6,982 bases of DNA from Alloprevotella sp. (GTDB taxonomy: Bacteria > Bacteroidota > Bacteroidia > Bacteroidales > Bacteroidaceae): the NCBI GenBank assembly GCA_017477205.1, contig JAFUXE010000069.1:1-6982 (forward strand). Reading direction: 5' to 3'. A model generated the notes under the pieces. That model ran no database searches. It saw nothing but the letters and a program-made list of their open reading frames with translations, and was not told the origin of the DNA. Every line of letters starts with the position of its first letter. Position 1 is the stretch's first letter. Positions 1 through 6,982 of the stretch are shown here, in pieces. The translations under genes were made by a program, and so were the position numbers.

Positions 1-2351
1 TCGTAGGTTCTCATAAAATCCGTCACGCCGTGGTCCATCAGCACGTACGCTTCCTGGTCCAAATCATCTATCGTCAACGGCGGAGCACCCGAGTTTCGTT
101 CGACGTGCCGGGGAGACGGGATAGGCTCCGCTTGACTGAAACAGTCCTTGTCGTAGTTCACCGTCTCTATGTATCCCCCCTGGGAGTAAGTGTATGATTT
201 GGCGGGATACAGGGACACTCCACTCTCCACGCCCCCGGCCCAAACGATGCCTCGCCGTTCCTCGTAGAAAGCACGGCGGAAGGTTTCGTGGGAAAGCAAC
301 CAGTCGCTCACGTAGGGAGCAGAAAGTCCATGGTCAAGATATTTGTCCGTCTCGCGAAACATGTCAAAGTATATTTGCGAACGCTCCATGAGTCTCCTTC
401 GTGTACCCCGTCGTGTGGGATGGTGGTGAGCCGTCACCGTGGCGGCCTCCAACTCGTGTTCCTTGTTGCCCCTCCACGCTTTGCTGCCTGTCAGCCCAAT
501 TTCTTCCGTTTGACGGTATCCCTCCGCTTCTGCTCTCAGGTGTAGAGGGCTGGGAGTTGGAGGAGGTAGCGTCTGCTCGTACCAGCTGTACGAGCGGCAC
601 GGCGGTGAGAACTGTCGGTTGAGAGAAGCAATCTGATACAGGTTCTTTCCCTTGCGTTTCGTGATAAACGACGTGTCCCAAACCCCGTACACATCAGGGA
701 CGGAGAAGGCGAAGTATCCCTCTTCATCCGTAAGCGTGCGTCCGCGCTCCGTGACGGTCGTGTCTGCGTTTGTCATTATGACCGACAGTTCCACGCTCGC
801 CCTATTGCGGGCGTTACGCTTTTTTCTTGGGGCTGTCCAGAAGGAGCCTTTGTAATCCAGCTTCGGATTTATACGTCCGTCAATGTAGAGGCGGTCCTCG
901 ATGGGCTGTCGTTTTACGAATGGCGCTTTGCCCGACATTTGCAGCCAGTCGTACCTTGCCCATCCCTGCACGAGGCAGAGCAGGTCTGCAGCTTGGCGGT
1001 GCGCGTTGTCGTCCGCCTCAAGGTAGTACTCCGCATCGCGGACGTAGCCTTTCAAATCTGAAGTGAGCAGCAGGTATGTCGCTACGTTGTCATCGCAACC
1101 ATTTGTCGTTGCCGCCACGTCGCGCACGGAGACTGACACCGTCTGTTTCGGAAAACCTTCCAGCTGTACAAGCATACGTTTATGGGGCGTGATGAGGGTG
1201 TCGGCAACGCATACTTTTACGTTCGCTACGCCTTTGGAGGGATTCGCAGGTGTCGGAGGTACAAAAAAGTGGCGTTGTGCCCAGATGCGGCCGTCGCTGT
1301 CAAAGAGTGTCAGTTGGTGAATCCCAGCTGGCAACGAGAGACGGTTGATCCGGATGTTCCATGCTCTCGCCGTGGAAGCCCTTCCGCGCTCGAAGGCCAG
1401 CACCGTGCCATTATGCATAAGCGTTAGCCCGAGTTCCCGCTCCGACAAGTCGGGGGTGACGTTCACCTGTATGGAGACGTACTTGACGTCCAAGGCATTT
1501 ACCGCCAGAACACAACCCTGGTCCTGTGCTTCCGGAAGGCGGACGCGGCGGGACTGCCCGTCGTGCGTGAAGCAGAGGTACAGGGGAGCGTCACCTGGGG
1601 TACAGGTGAACGTTCCGCGCCCCTCGCGCAACGTACGTACGCTTGCCAGTACCTCTCCCTGTTCCGTCTGGAGCTCTCCTTCAATGTCGATATTCGCCGA
1701 GTCTGGCAGCGAGACCTCGAAAGCTACGAGACTGTTCAGTCCGCGTACCAGGTTGCCGCCTTCGGGATAAAAGTCCACGATGGGAGGCTTTTCTTTCTGC
1801 CATAGCCGTAGCTGCTTCCGTGAGAGACTGTCGGGCGTGTCGTTTCCCATACGGTATTTCATAAAATCCTGCTCTATGATTTGGTTCGTATAGTTACCCT
1901 CCTGCTCCGGCCTGTCAAAGACTGGCACTACGCGCGAGAAGATATTCTCAGCCGGCCAGTTCGTCATGTAGCGTGTATAGGCACGAATCTCGTAGAAGCC
2001 GTTGGCGCGTAGCTTTTCCAAAGATATGTCGCCGTGGCACTGCCCGTCCTCGATCTTCAGCTTCTGCGTCTCTATAATTTCACCGAAGGGATCCACGAGC
2101 TCCACGTAGAGCACGCCGCTCAGGTTCGTGAAGGCCATCGTGTCGGGGCGCACGACATAGGCCTTGTACCAGATGGTATCGCCGATGAAGTACCCCGTGT
2201 TGTCCAGGTGCAGGTAGGCCTTCTCCTGCGGGAACAGGCGGGCGAAGGTCTCCACGTTGCGCACGAAGCCCCGGAGCCTTTCCTGCGCCGTCTGGGCAGA
2301 AAGGCATGCGGCGCATAGTGCGAGGAGGGTGACAGCGTATATCCGTTTCAT
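1..2351 (-). CDS. MG2/carboxypeptidase-regulatory-like exported protein with plug-like region (3' end outside window)
   Basis: I translated this frame by hand from the ATG at 2351..2349. It stays open for 783 codons to the left edge, so the C-terminus is missing. Residues 1-20 form a signal peptide (MKR, hydrophobic stretch, likely cleavage after LSA). Residues 43-66 hold the MG2-like start EKAYLHLDNTGYFIGDTIWY. FYPEGG lies at 194-199. LLLTSDLKGYV (427-437) and DLLCLVQGWARYDW (456-469) match motifs I recall from large Bacteroidetes MG2 proteins. A carboxypeptidase-regulatory-like sandwich follows (about 485-553, TDEEGYFAF at 541-549). HELEAATVTA (632-641) resembles the segment that opens a TonB plug. 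Family members are usually somewhat longer, so perhaps around 100 residues are missing. It is likely periplasmic or at the outer membrane; substrate and partner are unknown. No Shine-Dalgarno is seen, as is usual in this phylum. It follows the propeller lipoprotein gene by 57 bp, probably in one transcript. Third-position base use changes near 2030. Confidence 0.88.
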   Translation of the reverse strand, partial: MKRIYAVTLLALCAACLSAQTAQERLRGFVRNVETFARLFPQEKAYLHLDNTGYFIGDTIWYKAYVVRPDTMAFTNLSGVLYVELVDPFGEIIETQKLKIEDGQCHGDISLEKLRANGFYEIRAYTRYMTNWPAENIFSRVVPVFDRPEQEGNYTNQIIEQDFMKYRMGNDTPDSLSRKQLRLWQKEKPPIVDFYPEGGNLVRGLNSLVAFEVSLPDSANIDIEGELQTEQGEVLASVRTLREGRGTFTCTPGDAPLYLCFTHDGQSRRVRLPEAQDQGCVLAVNALDVKYVSIQVNVTPDLSERELGLTLMHNGTVLAFERGRASTARAWNIRINRLSLPAGIHQLTLFDSDGRIWAQRHFFVPPTPANPSKGVANVKVCVADTLITPHKRMLVQLEGFPKQTVSVSVRDVAATTNGCDDNVATYLLLTSDLKGYVRDAEYYLEADDNAHRQAADLLCLVQGWARYDWLQMSGKAPFVKRQPIEDRLYIDGRINPKLDYKGSFWTAPRKKRNARNRASVELSVIMTNADTTVTERGRTLTDEEGYFAFSVPDVYGVWDTSFITKRKGKNLYQIASLNRQFSPPCRSYSWYEQTLPPPTPSPLHLRAEAEGYRQTEEIGLTGSKAWRGNKEHELEAATVTAHHHPTRRGTRRRLMERSQIYFDMFRETDKYLDHGLSAPYVSDWLLSHETFRRAFYEERRGIVWAGGVESGVSLYPAKSYTYSQGGYIETVNYDKDCFSQAEPIPSPRHVERNSGAPPLTIDDLDQEAYVLMDHGVTDFMRTY

Positions 2352-2408: not shown

Positions 2409-3668
2409 TCAGAAGGCTTTGAGCTTCATTTTGACGAGGATGGGATTATCGTCCTCGTGGAGCGATTCCACCAATGCCCGGTCCTTCGGCGGAAACTGAA
2501 TCTTCTTCAGCTGCGGATGCTTCGCGTACTCCGCCAGCAGGCGGAACAGGTCCGCGGGGCGGAGAACGTGGTAGAAGTATTCCCCGTCGGAGAAGTTGAA
2601 GTGGTAGCAGCACATGTATTCAAACAGGTCGCCTCGCGGACGGGACACGTCACCGAAGAGGACGTGCCCGGACCGGCGGTCGTAGAGGAGGTTCGTGACG
2701 GGCTTTGCCTCCTGCATGATGGAAAACTGCATGTGGTGCTTCGTGAACGTGTAGTAGCCGTTGAAGTGCGGGGTTGTGCGGAAATAGGCATTCATCTTCT
2801 CGTCCGTGTCAATCTCGCCCTTCCACACCCATGAGGCCTTGTCAGGGAAGGCGAGGCAGTAGCGTGCGCGGCATGCGTCCTTGCCCACCTCCCAGATGGT
2901 GTCGGAGCGGATGTCGTGGTAGAAGACTTCGCCCGCGACGGCGTTCAGGGGCCTGCCGGACATCCAGTGGAACGCGTCGCGCAGGGATTCAGGATAGGGG
3001 AAGCCTGCCAGGGTGGGGACGAGTGCGCCCTGTGCTTCGGGCGTGGAGATGACGAGCTGGTGGCGGTCAACGGGTGCCAGGCGGCTGTTGTTCCCGAAGT
3101 AGGTGTATTGCGCCAGCTTGTCGCCAATGTATGCTATTTGGTAGAAGTAGTAGTAGAGCGGCATGCTTTTGACGAAACGCCCTTCGTAGTCGTAAACGAG
3201 GAGTGCGGCGCCGCGCGTATCTAAAAGCGTGATGGTCCGCGCTTTTGTGTCCAGGGCTATGTCCTCTACGTCTTGGTATTCGCCTGCGCCATAGCCGTAG
3301 GCCCCGATGCGTCCCAGGTACTTTCCGTCCTCGGAGAAGCGATAGACGGCATGGTTCTTTTTGTCCAGAATGAACATCTGGGCGGCATCGCACACGAGCT
3401 TGTCAACCCTGTCGATGTGGCAATCAGACCAAGTCTCCAGCCTTACGTAACGGATCGTGTCTATGAGGTTGTATAGGTCGTAAGGTTGTGGCTTCTCAGG
3501 CACGATGATTGTCTTCACGCCGGAGGTTATGAGGGGGAGGTCGGGGAGGTTTTCCTTCAGGCTGAGGACGTCGGCATATTGGCTGTTCAGGGGCGTGGCG
3601 ATTATCTCGCTCGCGTCCTTGCACGAGGAAAGCGCGAGCGCGGCGAGGGCGAATGCAGGGAGTTTCAT
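2409..3668 (-). CDS. 6-bladed beta-propeller lipoprotein
   Basis: This 419-aa protein starts with a short lipoprotein signal, a hydrophobic run ending LALSSC with the lipid-accepting Cys at 16. The mature end reads CKDASE. A lysine and acidic residues just after the Cys resemble the surface-export signal described for Bacteroidetes lipoproteins, so outer-membrane surface display is plausible. Blade-type repeats begin near residue 70. The hallmark GAYGYGAGEYQDVEDIALD lies at 122-140 and is followed by a DTRGAALLVYDYEG strand pair. The C-terminal HEDDNPILVKMKLK (404-417) matches the end of the Bacteroidales 6-bladed beta-propeller group (DUF5128/DUF4934-like, from memory). Length fits that group. 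No catalytic residues are evident; such proteins usually act as binding scaffolds and their ligand is unknown. It is the first gene after a good minus-strand promoter and precedes the MG2 gene by 57 bp. The leader is A/T-rich with no Shine-Dalgarno. Confidence 0.88.
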   Translation of the reverse strand: MKLPAFALAALALSSCKDASEIIATPLNSQYADVLSLKENLPDLPLITSGVKTIIVPEKPQPYDLYNLIDTIRYVRLETWSDCHIDRVDKLVCDAAQMFILDKKNHAVYRFSEDGKYLGRIGAYGYGAGEYQDVEDIALDTKARTITLLDTRGAALLVYDYEGRFVKSMPLYYYFYQIAYIGDKLAQYTYFGNNSRLAPVDRHQLVISTPEAQGALVPTLAGFPYPESLRDAFHWMSGRPLNAVAGEVFYHDIRSDTIWEVGKDACRARYCLAFPDKASWVWKGEIDTDEKMNAYFRTTPHFNGYYTFTKHHMQFSIMQEAKPVTNLLYDRRSGHVLFGDVSRPRGDLFEYMCCYHFNFSDGEYFYHVLRPADLFRLLAEYAKHPQLKKIQFPPKDRALVESLHEDDNPILVKMKLKAF

Positions 3669-3717: not shown

Positions 3718-3748
3718 CAAAGGTATGCAAAATGCCGTCCCCCTGCAA
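3718..3748 (-). promoter_or_regulatory. Promoter of the propeller-MG2 operon
   Basis: On the minus strand a -7 box TACCTTTG occupies 3725..3718. A TTG at 3748..3746 lies 20 nt upstream, which matches the Bacteroidetes sigma-ABfr promoter layout (TTTG or TTG, about 19-21 nt, TAnnTTTG). Transcription would start near 3711, giving a leader of roughly 43 nt, A/T-rich, before the ATG at 3668. It contains a repeated GATTTTTAT on the plus strand (3677..3685 and 3688..3696). Confidence 0.7.
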
Positions 3749-3756
3749 GCTAAACG

Positions 3757-3774
3757 CTTTCCACCTTTTTCCAC
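3757..3774 (-). repeat. Inverted-repeat arm / candidate operator for the propeller operon
   Basis: The plus strand reads CTTTCCACCTTTTTCCAC, the exact reverse complement of 3886..3903. Read toward the propeller gene it is GTGGAAA-AAG-GTGGAAA-G, two GTGGAAA copies with a 10-bp start-to-start step. It ends 31 bp before the -7 box and 8 bp before the -33 TTG, a typical activator position. The bound protein is not known. Confidence 0.65.
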
Positions 3775-3833
3775 TTTTGCGAAAAAATGCCTCGTCGGCA
3801 GGGTGACATTGTGTGTCGGAAGGTGGATGCAGA

Positions 3834-3851
3834 GAAAGGTGCAACCCTTTC
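3834..3851. repeat. Small inverted repeat GAAAGG/CCTTTC
   Basis: GAAAGG at 3834..3839 pairs with CCTTTC at 3846..3851 across a 6-nt spacer. It lies between the two 18-bp arms. Its AAAGGTG and a nearby AAGGTGGA at 3820..3827 resemble part of the arm sequence and may be weaker copies of the same site. Confidence 0.35.
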
Positions 3852-3854
3852 ACT

Positions 3855-3867
3855 GCAAGCAGCTTGC
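3855..3867. repeat. 13-bp palindrome GCAAGC-A-GCTTGC
   Basis: GCAAGC at 3855..3860 and GCTTGC at 3862..3867 form a perfect palindrome around one A. It lies about midway in the divergent region, between the arms. The 8-mer CTGCAAGC here also occurs at 3743..3750 in the -33 region of the minus-strand promoter. Its size suits a dimeric DNA-binding protein, but it could be chance. Confidence 0.4.
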
Positions 3868-3885
3868 CGCATCGTCTGGGGTGCC

Positions 3886-3903
3886 GTGGAAAAAGGTGGA
3901 AAG
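3886..3903 (+). repeat. Inverted-repeat arm / candidate operator for the regulator gene
   Basis: GTGGAAAAAGGTGGAAAG is the exact reverse complement of 3757..3774, with 111 bp between the arms. It points toward the TPR-HTH gene, just as the other copy points toward the propeller gene. It ends 32 bp before the -7 box at 3936. It contains two GTGGAAA copies with a 10-bp step. Confidence 0.65.
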
Positions 3904-3911
3904 GCATCCCT

Positions 3912-3926
3912 GCGGGCTATGTCCGC
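3912..3926. repeat. Imperfect palindrome in the -33 zone of the regulator promoter
   Basis: GCGGGC-TAT-GTCCGC can form a 6-bp stem with one G-T pair and a 3-nt loop. It sits where the -33 element of the plus-strand promoter should be. It could be a repressor site for autoregulation, or chance in GC-rich DNA. Confidence 0.3.
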
Positions 3927-3935
3927 GGAAAAGCA

Positions 3936-3943
3936 TAACTTTG
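3936..3943 (+). promoter_or_regulatory. -7 box of the TPR-HTH regulator gene
   Basis: TAACTTTG fits the Bacteroidetes TAnnTTTG -7 consensus and is followed by GCA. No good TTG is present at the expected -33 position (around 3911..3916, CG-rich), which suggests a weak or activator-dependent promoter. Transcription would start near 3950, leaving a leader of about 35 nt before the ATG at 3985. Confidence 0.55.
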
Positions 3944-3984: not shown

Positions 3985-5667
3985 ATGAACAGCACGAAGA
4001 ACATATTGCCCCTGCTGCTGCTCCTCCTCGGCCTCGTCCTGGGGCTGAGTCCCTCCTGCTCCAGACAGGCGGGGACGGCGCGCGAGCTGGAGGAGATACG
4101 GACCGTGGGTGAGAAGGATCCTGTGGCGGCCGCCAAAATGCTGGACTCCCTTTCATCCGCCGACGCAGAGGCGGACGAGGAGGTCGTCATGCGCCGCGAG
4201 CTGCTACAGCTCCGGCTGCAAGGGAAAGGCATATGCGTGCAGACGTCCGACGTGGCAGCAAGGCAGGTTTACGACTATTTCATGGCCAAGGGAAGCCGGG
4301 GCGAGCGGCTGGAGGCGTGCCTCTGCCTGGCAGGCGTGTATCGCGACCTGCATGACAGCCCCAAGGCGATACGCTACTACAACGAGGTCCTGGACATGGC
4401 CTCGGCAGGCACTGGGAGCGGGGCGGACAGCCTGGCCCTGACGGAAGCGTGCATGGAACTCAGCGCGCTCTACGGCTTGCAGTACAACTACAAATTGGCC
4501 CTGGAGACAGCCGAGAGGGGGCTGGAGACGGCACGGCGGCAGGGACGCGTCACGCCGCGGCTTCTGGCGGCCGTGGCTGCGGCGGCACGCGGGATGAACG
4601 ATGCCTACACGGTGCTGCGCCACCAGCGGGAGGCTCTGGACATGATTCAGCGCGACGGCACCCTCGACACCGATGCCGACGTCGTGGCGGACATCCTGGC
4701 GGACGCCTCCGAGTACAGTTTCACCGAGGAGGCCGAAAGATGCAGGACGCTTCTGGAAAGCATCAGTCCAAAGCGACGTCCGCGCGGCTACATGCGCGCC
4801 TTGGCAACCTACTACAGGTGCCACGCCAAGGCGGACTCCGCCATCAGCTGCTACCAACGCATATACGCCACCTCCAGAAGCGCGGAAGAGAGATGCGAGG
4901 CCAGCCGCCATCTGGCCCTGCTCTACGAGCGGAAGGGGGACGGCGCACAGTCGCAGAAATATGCCCTCGCCTTCATACATGCCGAAAGGGACTACAGGAA
5001 AACCTTGCAGCATGAGCAGGCTGTCAGCGCGTACAACGAGTTCGTCTATAACAGGAACGCGGCAGCGGAGGAAAGGGCGTACCGTGCAGCGGCGGAGGCG
5101 CAGCGCAGCAAAATGGAGTGGATAGCGGCCTTCGCCTTCCTCCTCGTGCTGTCCCTGCTGCTCATCCTGACGCAGCGGTACCGGAACCTGCGGCGCAGGA
5201 ACGCGGCGCTGGAGCGCATGCGAGAAATGGAAGGGGAGATACGCCACGGGCAGGACGTGGAGCGCCAGCTGCAAGCGAAGGAAAAGCTTCTCGCGGAGAA
5301 GCTGGATCAGAACGAGCGCCTTTTCCGTTATGCCTTCACGGAGAACCTGCAGGCAAGCGCGGGCGACGTCCTCAGGCAGTTCCGCATGGCGTCCGGCGGG
5401 AGGCACCACCTTTCCAGCGAGGAATGGAAGCAGATGTTCGCGGCGGTCGATACGCTCTATCCCGGCTTCAGGGCCGCCGTCGTCAGCAAGGTCGGCAAGC
5501 CCACGGAGGACAAGCTGCGCATCGCCTACCTGCTGAAGGCCGGCATGGGGAAGCCGCAGATTGCCAGCCTCACCGGCTACCCCACGACGACGGTATGGCG
5601 GAAGGTGCGGCAGCTGACGGAAGTGCTGAAGGAGGAGCTTTGGCGGCTGGACGACCTCGCCACGTAG
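3985..5667 (+). CDS. Membrane-anchored TPR-like protein with C-terminal HTH (putative one-component regulator)
   Basis: This 560-aa protein is started at the ATG at 3985 because a signal sequence follows at once: MNSTKN, a leucine-rich core, then LSPSC with Cys25, a non-canonical lipobox. Residues 30-370 are largely alpha-helical with TPR-like pairs, for example AxxCLxxAGVYRDLHDSPKAIRYYNEVLD at 110-138 and helices at 154-184 and 306-336. One membrane helix spans about 377-396 and is followed by basic RYRNLRRRN, so the C-terminal part should be cytoplasmic. A coiled coil covers about 400-445. The last 110 residues form a helical domain with an HTH-like stretch (PTEDKLRIAYLLKAG, then KPQIASLTGYPTTTVWRKVRQL, 506-544). 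Similar TPR-TM-HTH proteins are common in Bacteroidales as putative regulators. It probably senses something in the periplasm and binds DNA in the cytoplasm. It is divergent from the propeller-MG2 operon, a plausible target. Confidence 0.85.
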   Translation: MNSTKNILPLLLLLLGLVLGLSPSCSRQAGTARELEEIRTVGEKDPVAAAKMLDSLSSADAEADEEVVMRRELLQLRLQGKGICVQTSDVAARQVYDYFMAKGSRGERLEACLCLAGVYRDLHDSPKAIRYYNEVLDMASAGTGSGADSLALTEACMELSALYGLQYNYKLALETAERGLETARRQGRVTPRLLAAVAAAARGMNDAYTVLRHQREALDMIQRDGTLDTDADVVADILADASEYSFTEEAERCRTLLESISPKRRPRGYMRALATYYRCHAKADSAISCYQRIYATSRSAEERCEASRHLALLYERKGDGAQSQKYALAFIHAERDYRKTLQHEQAVSAYNEFVYNRNAAAEERAYRAAAEAQRSKMEWIAAFAFLLVLSLLLILTQRYRNLRRRNAALERMREMEGEIRHGQDVERQLQAKEKLLAEKLDQNERLFRYAFTENLQASAGDVLRQFRMASGGRHHLSSEEWKQMFAAVDTLYPGFRAAVVSKVGKPTEDKLRIAYLLKAGMGKPQIASLTGYPTTTVWRKVRQLTEVLKEELWRLDDLAT

Positions 5668-5712
5668 GTTCTTAGGTTTATAGGTTCTTAGGTTTATTGG
5701 TTTATAGGTTTT
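5665..5712 (+). repeat. Six tandem copies of an 8-bp unit overlapping the stop codon
   Basis: Two exact copies of TAGGTTCTTAGGTTTA (5665..5680, 5681..5696) are followed by a degenerate third (5697..5712). This resolves into six 8-bp units of the form TAGGTTYW, the fifth starting TTGG. The TAG stop of the regulator gene is the first three bases of the array. Such AGGTT-type runs resemble repeats I have seen between genes in Bacteroidales genomes, but I cannot name a family. Confidence 0.8.
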
Positions 5713-5822
5713 TGAAATCTTTTTTCTTCTAACCACTACAGACACAGCTTGGGGAACCACAGACTATACGGACTTCTGTTCCTCTTGCCGAAAAAGGGAG
5801 AAAAGGCCGGAGGTTTCAGGAG

Positions 5823-5977: not shown

Positions 5978-6982
5978 TTACTTGTCCCATCCTGCGGCCT
6001 TCATGATGCGCAGGGGGATCTCGGTGTTGTCGAAACGGCCCGTGAACTGCTCGGCACCGGCACCGACGGCATAGACGCCGACGTAGCCGTTCGAGTGGCC
6101 TCCGCTCTGCCATCCGATGCCGCTGGCTCGGTCGCAGGTGTGGGCGGCTGCGTAGGTGAAGTCGCTTATCTCGCCCGTGAGCTTGCTGTCGCCGCTGACG
6201 AGGGCGGCTGCGAGCTTGTCGTAGGCGGCACGGAGCTCCTCGACGTCGGCGGCCTTGGGCTCGATGGTGCCCCAGATGCCGAAGTTCTCACGCAGGAGGT
6301 TGCGGGCGTACTCCCACGTGAACTCGCTGGGGTTGATGCGTGCGAGGAGGCGCTTCATGTTGCGGCTGAAGCGTCCCAGGCTGATGGTCTGCCCGCGCAG
6401 CTGGTCGAGGTGGAGCTGATAGCTGCCGCGGCCGAGGGAGAGGCCGCCGGTCTCGTGGTCGGCGGTGATGACGATGAGCGTCTCCTTGGGGTGCTTCTGG
6501 TAGAAGTCGTAGGCGATGCGTACGCAGCTGTCCATGTCGATGAGCTCGTGGATGTAGCTGGCGCCGTCGTTGGCGTGGCAGGCCTTGTCGATCATGCCGC
6601 CCTCGATCATGACGAAGAAGCCTTTCTTCTGCTTCTGTTTCTTGGAGAGGAAGTCTATGGCTGCACGCGTGATCTGCTGGAGGGAGAGGTTTTCGGGGCG
6701 CTGCTCTATTTTGTAGGGGATGTTCTGCACGTGCTCCTCGCTGTCGGCCTTGGGCTGGAAGAGCACCATCTTGTCCGCCGCGGCGCACTTGGCGAGGTAT
6801 TCGTCGTAGCCGCGCACGATGGTGTAGCCTGCGGCCTCGGTCTGCTGGTAGAGGTCGGGGGTGCCTTCGGGCTCGTCCTTGCCGACGGGCGTCATGAAGT
6901 CAGACCCTGCAAAGAAGTCGAAGCCCGAGGGGCCGAGCTGCTTGCCGATTTCGTAGTACATGTTGCGGTTCTCGGCATGGGC
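5978..6982 (-). CDS. Alkaline phosphatase, PhoA family (5' end outside window)
   Basis: The frame is open to the right edge, and 334 C-terminal residues are visible before the TAA at 5980..5978. An internal ATG at 6961 is not the true start, because coding continues upstream (AHAENRN). PhoA-family metal-site motifs are intact: VMIEGGMIDKACHANDG (125-140 of the visible part), where E127 matches the E. coli Mg ligand Glu322 and D132 and H136 match Asp327 and His331. TADHETGG carries D175 and H176 (Asp369, His370), and GGHSNGY carries H296 (His412). The missing part should hold the nucleophilic Ser and the first Asp ligand. It hydrolyses phosphate monoesters and is normally exported to the periplasm. 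It converges on the regulator gene and has its own hairpin terminator, so it is probably independent of the module to the left. Whether phosphate controls it cannot be judged, as its promoter is not visible. Confidence 0.93.
   Translation of the reverse strand, partial: AHAENRNMYYEIGKQLGPSGFDFFAGSDFMTPVGKDEPEGTPDLYQQTEAAGYTIVRGYDEYLAKCAAADKMVLFQPKADSEEHVQNIPYKIEQRPENLSLQQITRAAIDFLSKKQKQKKGFFVMIEGGMIDKACHANDGASYIHELIDMDSCVRIAYDFYQKHPKETLIVITADHETGGLSLGRGSYQLHLDQLRGQTISLGRFSRNMKRLLARINPSEFTWEYARNLLRENFGIWGTIEPKAADVEELRAAYDKLAAALVSGDSKLTGEISDFTYAAAHTCDRASGIGWQSGGHSNGYVGVYAVGAGAEQFTGRFDNTEIPLRIMKAAGWDK

Follow-up and report, generated by a model that had tools for sequence, protein, structure and literature searches.

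Between two divergent genes, the window (the whole stretch of DNA analysed, 6982 bases) carries a mirror-image pair of 18-bp arms. The pair is one case of a family-wide layout, consisting of inverted tandem arms of ~7-bp half-sites spaced 10 bp apart. Judged from the sequence, it is likely the bidirectional operator of the adjacent, predicted membrane-anchored one-component regulator, which would switch its own gene and the divergent operon together, probably by activation. The finding goes beyond what was first described, as the pair is an example of a promoter grammar common to most close homologues of the regulator.

The two arms are copies of GTGGAAAAAGGTGGAAAG on opposite strands (Table 1). 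All 18 positions are complementary (18/18, 100%), with a spacer of 111 nt, confirming the perfect inverted repeat of the original prediction, and a recount returned the same arm-to-box gaps on both sides. No third copy was found in the window at ≤3 mismatches (2 matches in total). In 200 dinucleotide shuffles of the window, the mean number of matches was 0.01, and two matches were reached in 0/200. With so few expected by chance, and with the layout recurring in relatives, the earlier view that a chance match is unlikely holds. Two features had been missed. Within each arm a unit is directly repeated at a 10-bp period (GTGGAAAAAG/GTGGAAAG), and in the left promoter a CTTG stands at the position expected for the -33 element, which is part of the Bacteroidetes promoter consensus. 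In the right, regulator-side promoter of the window, a clear -33 TTTG was looked for and not found.

Table 1 Features of the window, with positions counted from its first base.
Feature	Position	Strand	Remarks
Second gene of the presumed propeller operon	3..2351	-	783+ aa, runs off the window; MG2-domain match below cut-off
Propeller gene, divergent target	2409..3668	-	6-bladed beta-propeller protein (PF17170), 419 aa
-7 box, propeller operon	3718..3725	-	TACCTTTG (CAAAGGTA on the + strand); 31 bp from left arm
CTTG, presumed -33 element, propeller promoter	3746..3749	-	20 bp upstream of the -7 box; TTG at the same place in aligned promoters
Left arm	3757..3774	-	Half-sites GTGGAAAAAG GTGGAAAG, 10-bp period; toward propeller operon
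Right arm	3886..3903	+	Same tandem half-site pair as left arm; toward regulator gene
-7 box, regulator promoter	3936..3943	+	TAACTTTG; 32 bp from right arm
Regulator gene	3985..5667	+	560 aa; TPR, TM stretch and C-terminal LuxR/sigma4-like HTH
Alkaline phosphatase gene	5978-6961	-	PF00245; upstream end cut by the window end

From its sequence and a structure model, the regulator has TPR-type helices (residues 25–317), a long helix (320–470) with the hydrophobic TM stretch inside it, and an HTH (508–548) whose modelled fold appears most similar to sigma4 and LuxR folds. Its N-terminus is lipobox-like. The TPR domain is predicted to lie outside the inner membrane, and the protein is predicted to be a membrane-anchored one-component regulator, a single chain that combines sensor, TM helix and DNA-binding domain. 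Of 52 close Met-start homologues, 49 had a lipobox-like small residue plus Cys at residues 11–34 (window 3985–4070). It is odd for the same regulator to have a lipid anchor and, further on, a TM helix. Directly past the regulator stop codon (window 5666–5720) there were, by eye, AT-rich near-repeats of the TAGGTTTATAGGTTCTTAGGTT type. The 7-kb window gave propeller, MG2-like and alkaline phosphatase matches, and no matches to susC/susD or glycosidases. A homologue with 70% identity (P0002) has a predicted N-terminal extension reading LEKGGK, and at the matching stretch the translated right arm gives VEKGGK in the upstream frame of the window. The DNA of P0002 can therefore encode the right arm, at codon level and as judged from its protein.

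To collect relatives we searched a protein collection, which gave seven proteins, including the one from the window. The first search for relatives, with the single window protein, gave no matches. An alignment of the seven sequences matched four loci in GTDB contigs, while viral contigs gave no match. Among 399 genomes from the family of G003, 55 had matches at E ≤ 1e-30. We fetched 45 regions, covering most places not yet returned as loci and leaving out a C-terminal fragment in G231. At a threshold of E ≤ 1e-25, 82 non-redundant open frames were kept of 93, and divided into a close set (55 frames, E < 1e-55) and a far set (27 frames). From the close set we dropped four loci with <200 bp upstream (L029, L046, L052 and L080) and two gene fragments (the second pieces of L054 and L073), and from the far set the first piece of L054, so that 49 close and 26 far homologues entered the architecture test. 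The 49 are not independent cases, because some are near-identical (e.g., L038 and L040). Searches at genus, order and second family level, with overlapping or small draws, added only two new loci, L113 and L114.

Each upstream region (≤300 bp) was scored by its best combination of four 7-mers, with two 7-mers spaced by period p in each of two inverted arms, against 200 dinucleotide shuffles of the same region. At period 10, 35/49 close homologues had z > 3 (mean z 5.43) and 32/49 were never matched by the 200 shuffles; at nine other periods (7 to 16), z > 3 was reached by at most 3/49. Controls were the 300-bp segments of highest AT content from other parts of the fetched loci (150 segments, 60 shuffles each): five had z > 3, and six were never matched by their shuffles. 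Conservation of the arms in orthologous regions, the check proposed with the original prediction, was thus borne out for the architecture in 35/49 close homologues and not for the letters, which vary by clade. The later-found L113 (z 4.0) and L114 (z 10.2) also passed at period 10, with 0/200 shuffles reaching either score. Comparing inward with outward arms was uninformative, the two giving the same number by symmetry.

The layout had limits. In the 300-bp scan, 14/49 close homologues had no passing arms at period 10. With 400 bp, 34/49 passed; L069 passed only at this length, because the 300-bp limit had cut its left arm, and L072 and L075 fell just below the threshold. L047 and L070, both among the 14 failures, had an arm period of 9 instead of 10 (z 9.3 and 6.8). 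L045 (G174) and L063 (G086) had no passing arms at period 9, 10 or 11, and both were without a lipobox-like Cys. In the far set only 1/26 had z > 3 at period 10; the other 25 failed, and a run of matches sought at any offset in these distant homologues was not found. Inter-arm gaps <50 bp clustered at a helical period of 10 (12 loci, R = 0.78, p about 0.001), only a hint of helical phasing between arms, with three periods and three subsets tried. Long gaps showed no helical clustering at period 10 (22 loci, p 0.58).

The arms also kept a fixed distance to the promoters. We counted TAnnTTTG boxes in 5-bp bins from the end of the 17-mer arm on the 72 sides of the 36 loci that had scored z > 3 (35 close homologues plus L073). 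The box was found at 30–34 bp on 41/70 sides, at 40–44 bp on 6/69, and in any other bin on three sides at most. With the two period-9 loci added, 56/76 sides had a box at 25–55 bp and 20 had none. In 44 promoters with a box at 28–34 bp, aligned on the box and counted from the first T of TAnnTTTG, TTGGGAC-type half-sites started at about -48 and -38, and a TTG occupied -23 to -21 (T 84%, T 77%, G 57%). We take this TTG to be the Bacteroidetes -33 promoter element, which places the arms directly upstream of it. A second spacing class, with the -7 box 41–44 bp from the arm and thus one helical turn further out, was seen in the right-hand promoters of L009, L035, L038, L040, L043, L061 and L114. 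In L114 the right box was at 41 bp and no left box lay in the region; L113 had boxes at 30 and 29 bp.

The half-site words of the 35 loci compared largely grouped with their regulators. WRW helices paired with GAAAC/GGAAC-type words (9/9; L089 also has TGTAAC), and where QT precedes W or F in the helix, the words were mostly GGACA or TTGGGAG/C. Exceptions were L058 (QTVW) with TTGGATG, L066 (QTTW) with TTTGACA, and L002, which has TGGGAC without QT. Word similarity tracked regulator similarity (Mantel test, 0/1000 permutations as good). With sensor similarity held constant, the partial correlation between HTH identity and word was 0.05, reached by 269/1000 permutations; with the HTH held constant, that between sensor part and word was 0.31. 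The word therefore tracks the regulator's descent, as the HTH adds nothing beyond the sensor part and the sensor part still adds beyond the HTH. Beyond what the family tree explains, the word showed no correlation with HTH residues in the 35 loci, and no specific HTH-to-DNA code emerges. Each regulator probably has its own lock, the site letters changing by clade while the layout stays. Paralogous loci in G105 (L031, L058) and G315 (L042; L069 by eye) had differing words. The paralogues L034 and L062, both in G161, had nearly identical ones, showing that insulation is not universal.

Three words from relatives were searched in whole genomes. For TTGGGAGNNNTTGGGAG, a TTGGGAG word, 8 genomes gave 16 matches at ≤1 mismatch, in 6 genomes (reversed-pattern control, 5); the three exact ones (two in G342, one in G156) were all at regulator loci, and 12 of the 13 one-mismatch copies were away from them. 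For TCGGACANNNTCGGACA, all 8 matches at ≤1 mismatch in 5 genomes were at regulator loci (reversed control, 9), including three exact ones (G105, G204 and G362). For TGGAACNANNTGGAACNNNNT, 3 genomes gave 65 matches at ≤2 mismatches versus 41 in the reversed control: three were exact and at regulator loci (G086, G203 and G251), both one-mismatch copies were elsewhere in G086, and 2/60 two-mismatch copies were at regulator loci. Site copies unrelated to promoters, which the original prediction had named as evidence against it, did not occur as exact copies of these three words, whose pooled exact matches were all at regulator loci (9/9, 8 genomes).

The divergent gene varied. Among 43 mechanically chosen candidates, some of which may be wrong, 14 matched DUF3244 (E ≤ 0.03), making it the commonest partner; others were three BspA-type LRR proteins and single cases of a serpin, CotH, a propeller and others. 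Five DUF3244-matching proteins viewed singly were 136–161 aa long. The ORF picked as divergent at L045 had a GG-type leader-like N-terminus instead. That the regulator gene is constant and the divergent gene variable argues for binding by the TPR-TM-HTH protein, with both promoters as its targets. The earlier proposal that one DNA-binding protein, perhaps this one, co-controls both transcripts gains support in the same way, and we infer that it binds the arms.

The mechanism we propose is as follows. The long helix below the membrane would bring the cytoplasmic LuxR/sigma4-like HTHs together in pairs, and the paired HTHs would bind next to each other on the two half-sites of an arm, which lie on one helix face. 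From the arm, the regulator would assist RNA polymerase at the -33/-7 promoter. A signal would be sensed by the TPR domain outside the membrane, and regulator and divergent operon would turn on as one module. The sign of regulation is the weakest inference here. Activation appears likelier than repression because the arms sit just upstream of the -33 element and not over it. The same binder could also act on the same sites as a repressor, keeping both promoters silent as long as no signal reaches the TPR domain. Autoregulated divergent operators are often repressor sites. However, in the 44 aligned promoters the arms end about 8–9 bp upstream of the TTG and leave both TTG and -7 box uncovered, and contact with polymerase would require just such a fixed distance, with the second class displaced by one turn, so we consider repression unlikely. 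Quite doubtful, too, is a wider view of the regulator as a Gram-negative, membrane-anchored counterpart of Rap/NprR-type peptide sensors, with several private circuits per genome. Here the TPR superhelix would read a product of the divergent operon, a peptide or small secreted protein (often DUF3244), the paired arms would switch regulator and operon jointly, and the modules would diversify their operator words.

Other readings take the regulator out of the circuit. A separate global DNA-binding protein might bind the repeats, with the regulator gene as a passenger. MraZ binds TGGGN repeats with a 10-bp period, and the helix-phased TGGGA-type repeats of some clades resemble its box. One global protein would, however, hardly read sites whose words vary by clade and between paralogous loci of the same genome (G105, G315), and exact copies of the three searched words were found only at regulator loci, which makes this explanation very improbable. 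The arms might instead be recombination sites that flip the sequence between them, as inverted repeats of such length flank phase-variable promoters in Bacteroidales. We rejected the invertible promoter: both -7 boxes of the window lie outside the arms, the arms hold a fixed distance to the promoters, and in L009, L065 and L067 they touch (gap 0), leaving nothing to invert. An invertible segment is thus extremely improbable. Short two-copy repeats can also arise by chance or neutrally, but the shuffles, the recurrence in relatives, the fixed promoter distance and the two later-found loci are all against it here, and we regard the probability as negligible.

With a bidirectional operator of the adjacent regulator as the preferred reading, the fixed promoter grammar makes it possible to read, from the DNA upstream of an uncharacterised regulator, the word that it likely binds. 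The grammar also names the target operon, and specificity can be tested by word swaps. For engineering in Bacteroidales, the layout is a source of candidate orthogonal switches, and it allows a comparison of many natural regulator-operator pairs within one system.

In the literature searched (open-licence PMC papers) we found no operator description for TPR-TM-HTH proteins of gut Bacteroidales. Several known systems share parts of the design. For OmpR/PhoB-type regulators, ToxR and CadC, tandem half-sites lie immediately upstream of the promoter at a spacing of about one turn; in ToxR and CadC the DNA-binding domain, an N-terminal winged helix, is tethered to the membrane. The tandem half-sites are shared here, and so is the tether as predicted, whereas the HTH is C-terminal and appears sigma4/LuxR-like. 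The MraZ operator likewise has direct G-rich 5-mer repeats with a 10-bp period, but here there are two repeats per arm, the arms are inverted, and the words change with the neighbouring regulator. The BT3442 family (NF053779), found beside BT3441 and a MACPF gene, is also TPR-containing, and proteins of the 3d33/BT3441 type are presumably DUF3244, the commonest divergent partner here. In B. thetaiotaomicron, BT3442 adjoins BT3441, which is homologous to the protein of structure 3d33, according to the excerpt available of that study (PMC2954219). The window protein scored 19.4 bits against NF053779 (cut-off 940), and by eye no arms were seen in the upstream DNA of L109 and L111, two of three family members.

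SusR itself is, we assume, a DUF6377 protein. Against DUF6377 (PF19904) the window protein scored 19.9 bits, below the cut-off of 36.7, and in G168 one DUF6377 protein adjoined GH3, GH16 and SusD genes. As described in the excerpt of the source, SusR-like regulators (SusR, BT3705 and paralogues) are Bacteroides membrane proteins with the sensor outside and a C-terminal HTH inside; they control neighbouring operons through two conserved sites per regulatory region, and their motif similarity follows regulator similarity (PMC3878776). In B. thetaiotaomicron, three of five SusR-like genes have susC/susD beside them (PMC3878776). The regulators studied here are alike in the predicted outside sensor and inside C-terminal HTH, the presumed control of a neighbouring operon, the two sites and the word that follows the regulator. 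In contrast, each SusR motif predicted in that excerpt consists of two directly oriented sites whose centres are separated by 67 or 77 bp (PMC3878776), whereas here half-sites are 10 bp apart, and the arms are inverted, with 111 nt between them, and lie between two divergent promoters. On what these excerpts describe, SusR-like regulators are the closest known system, and the sites in the window are built differently.
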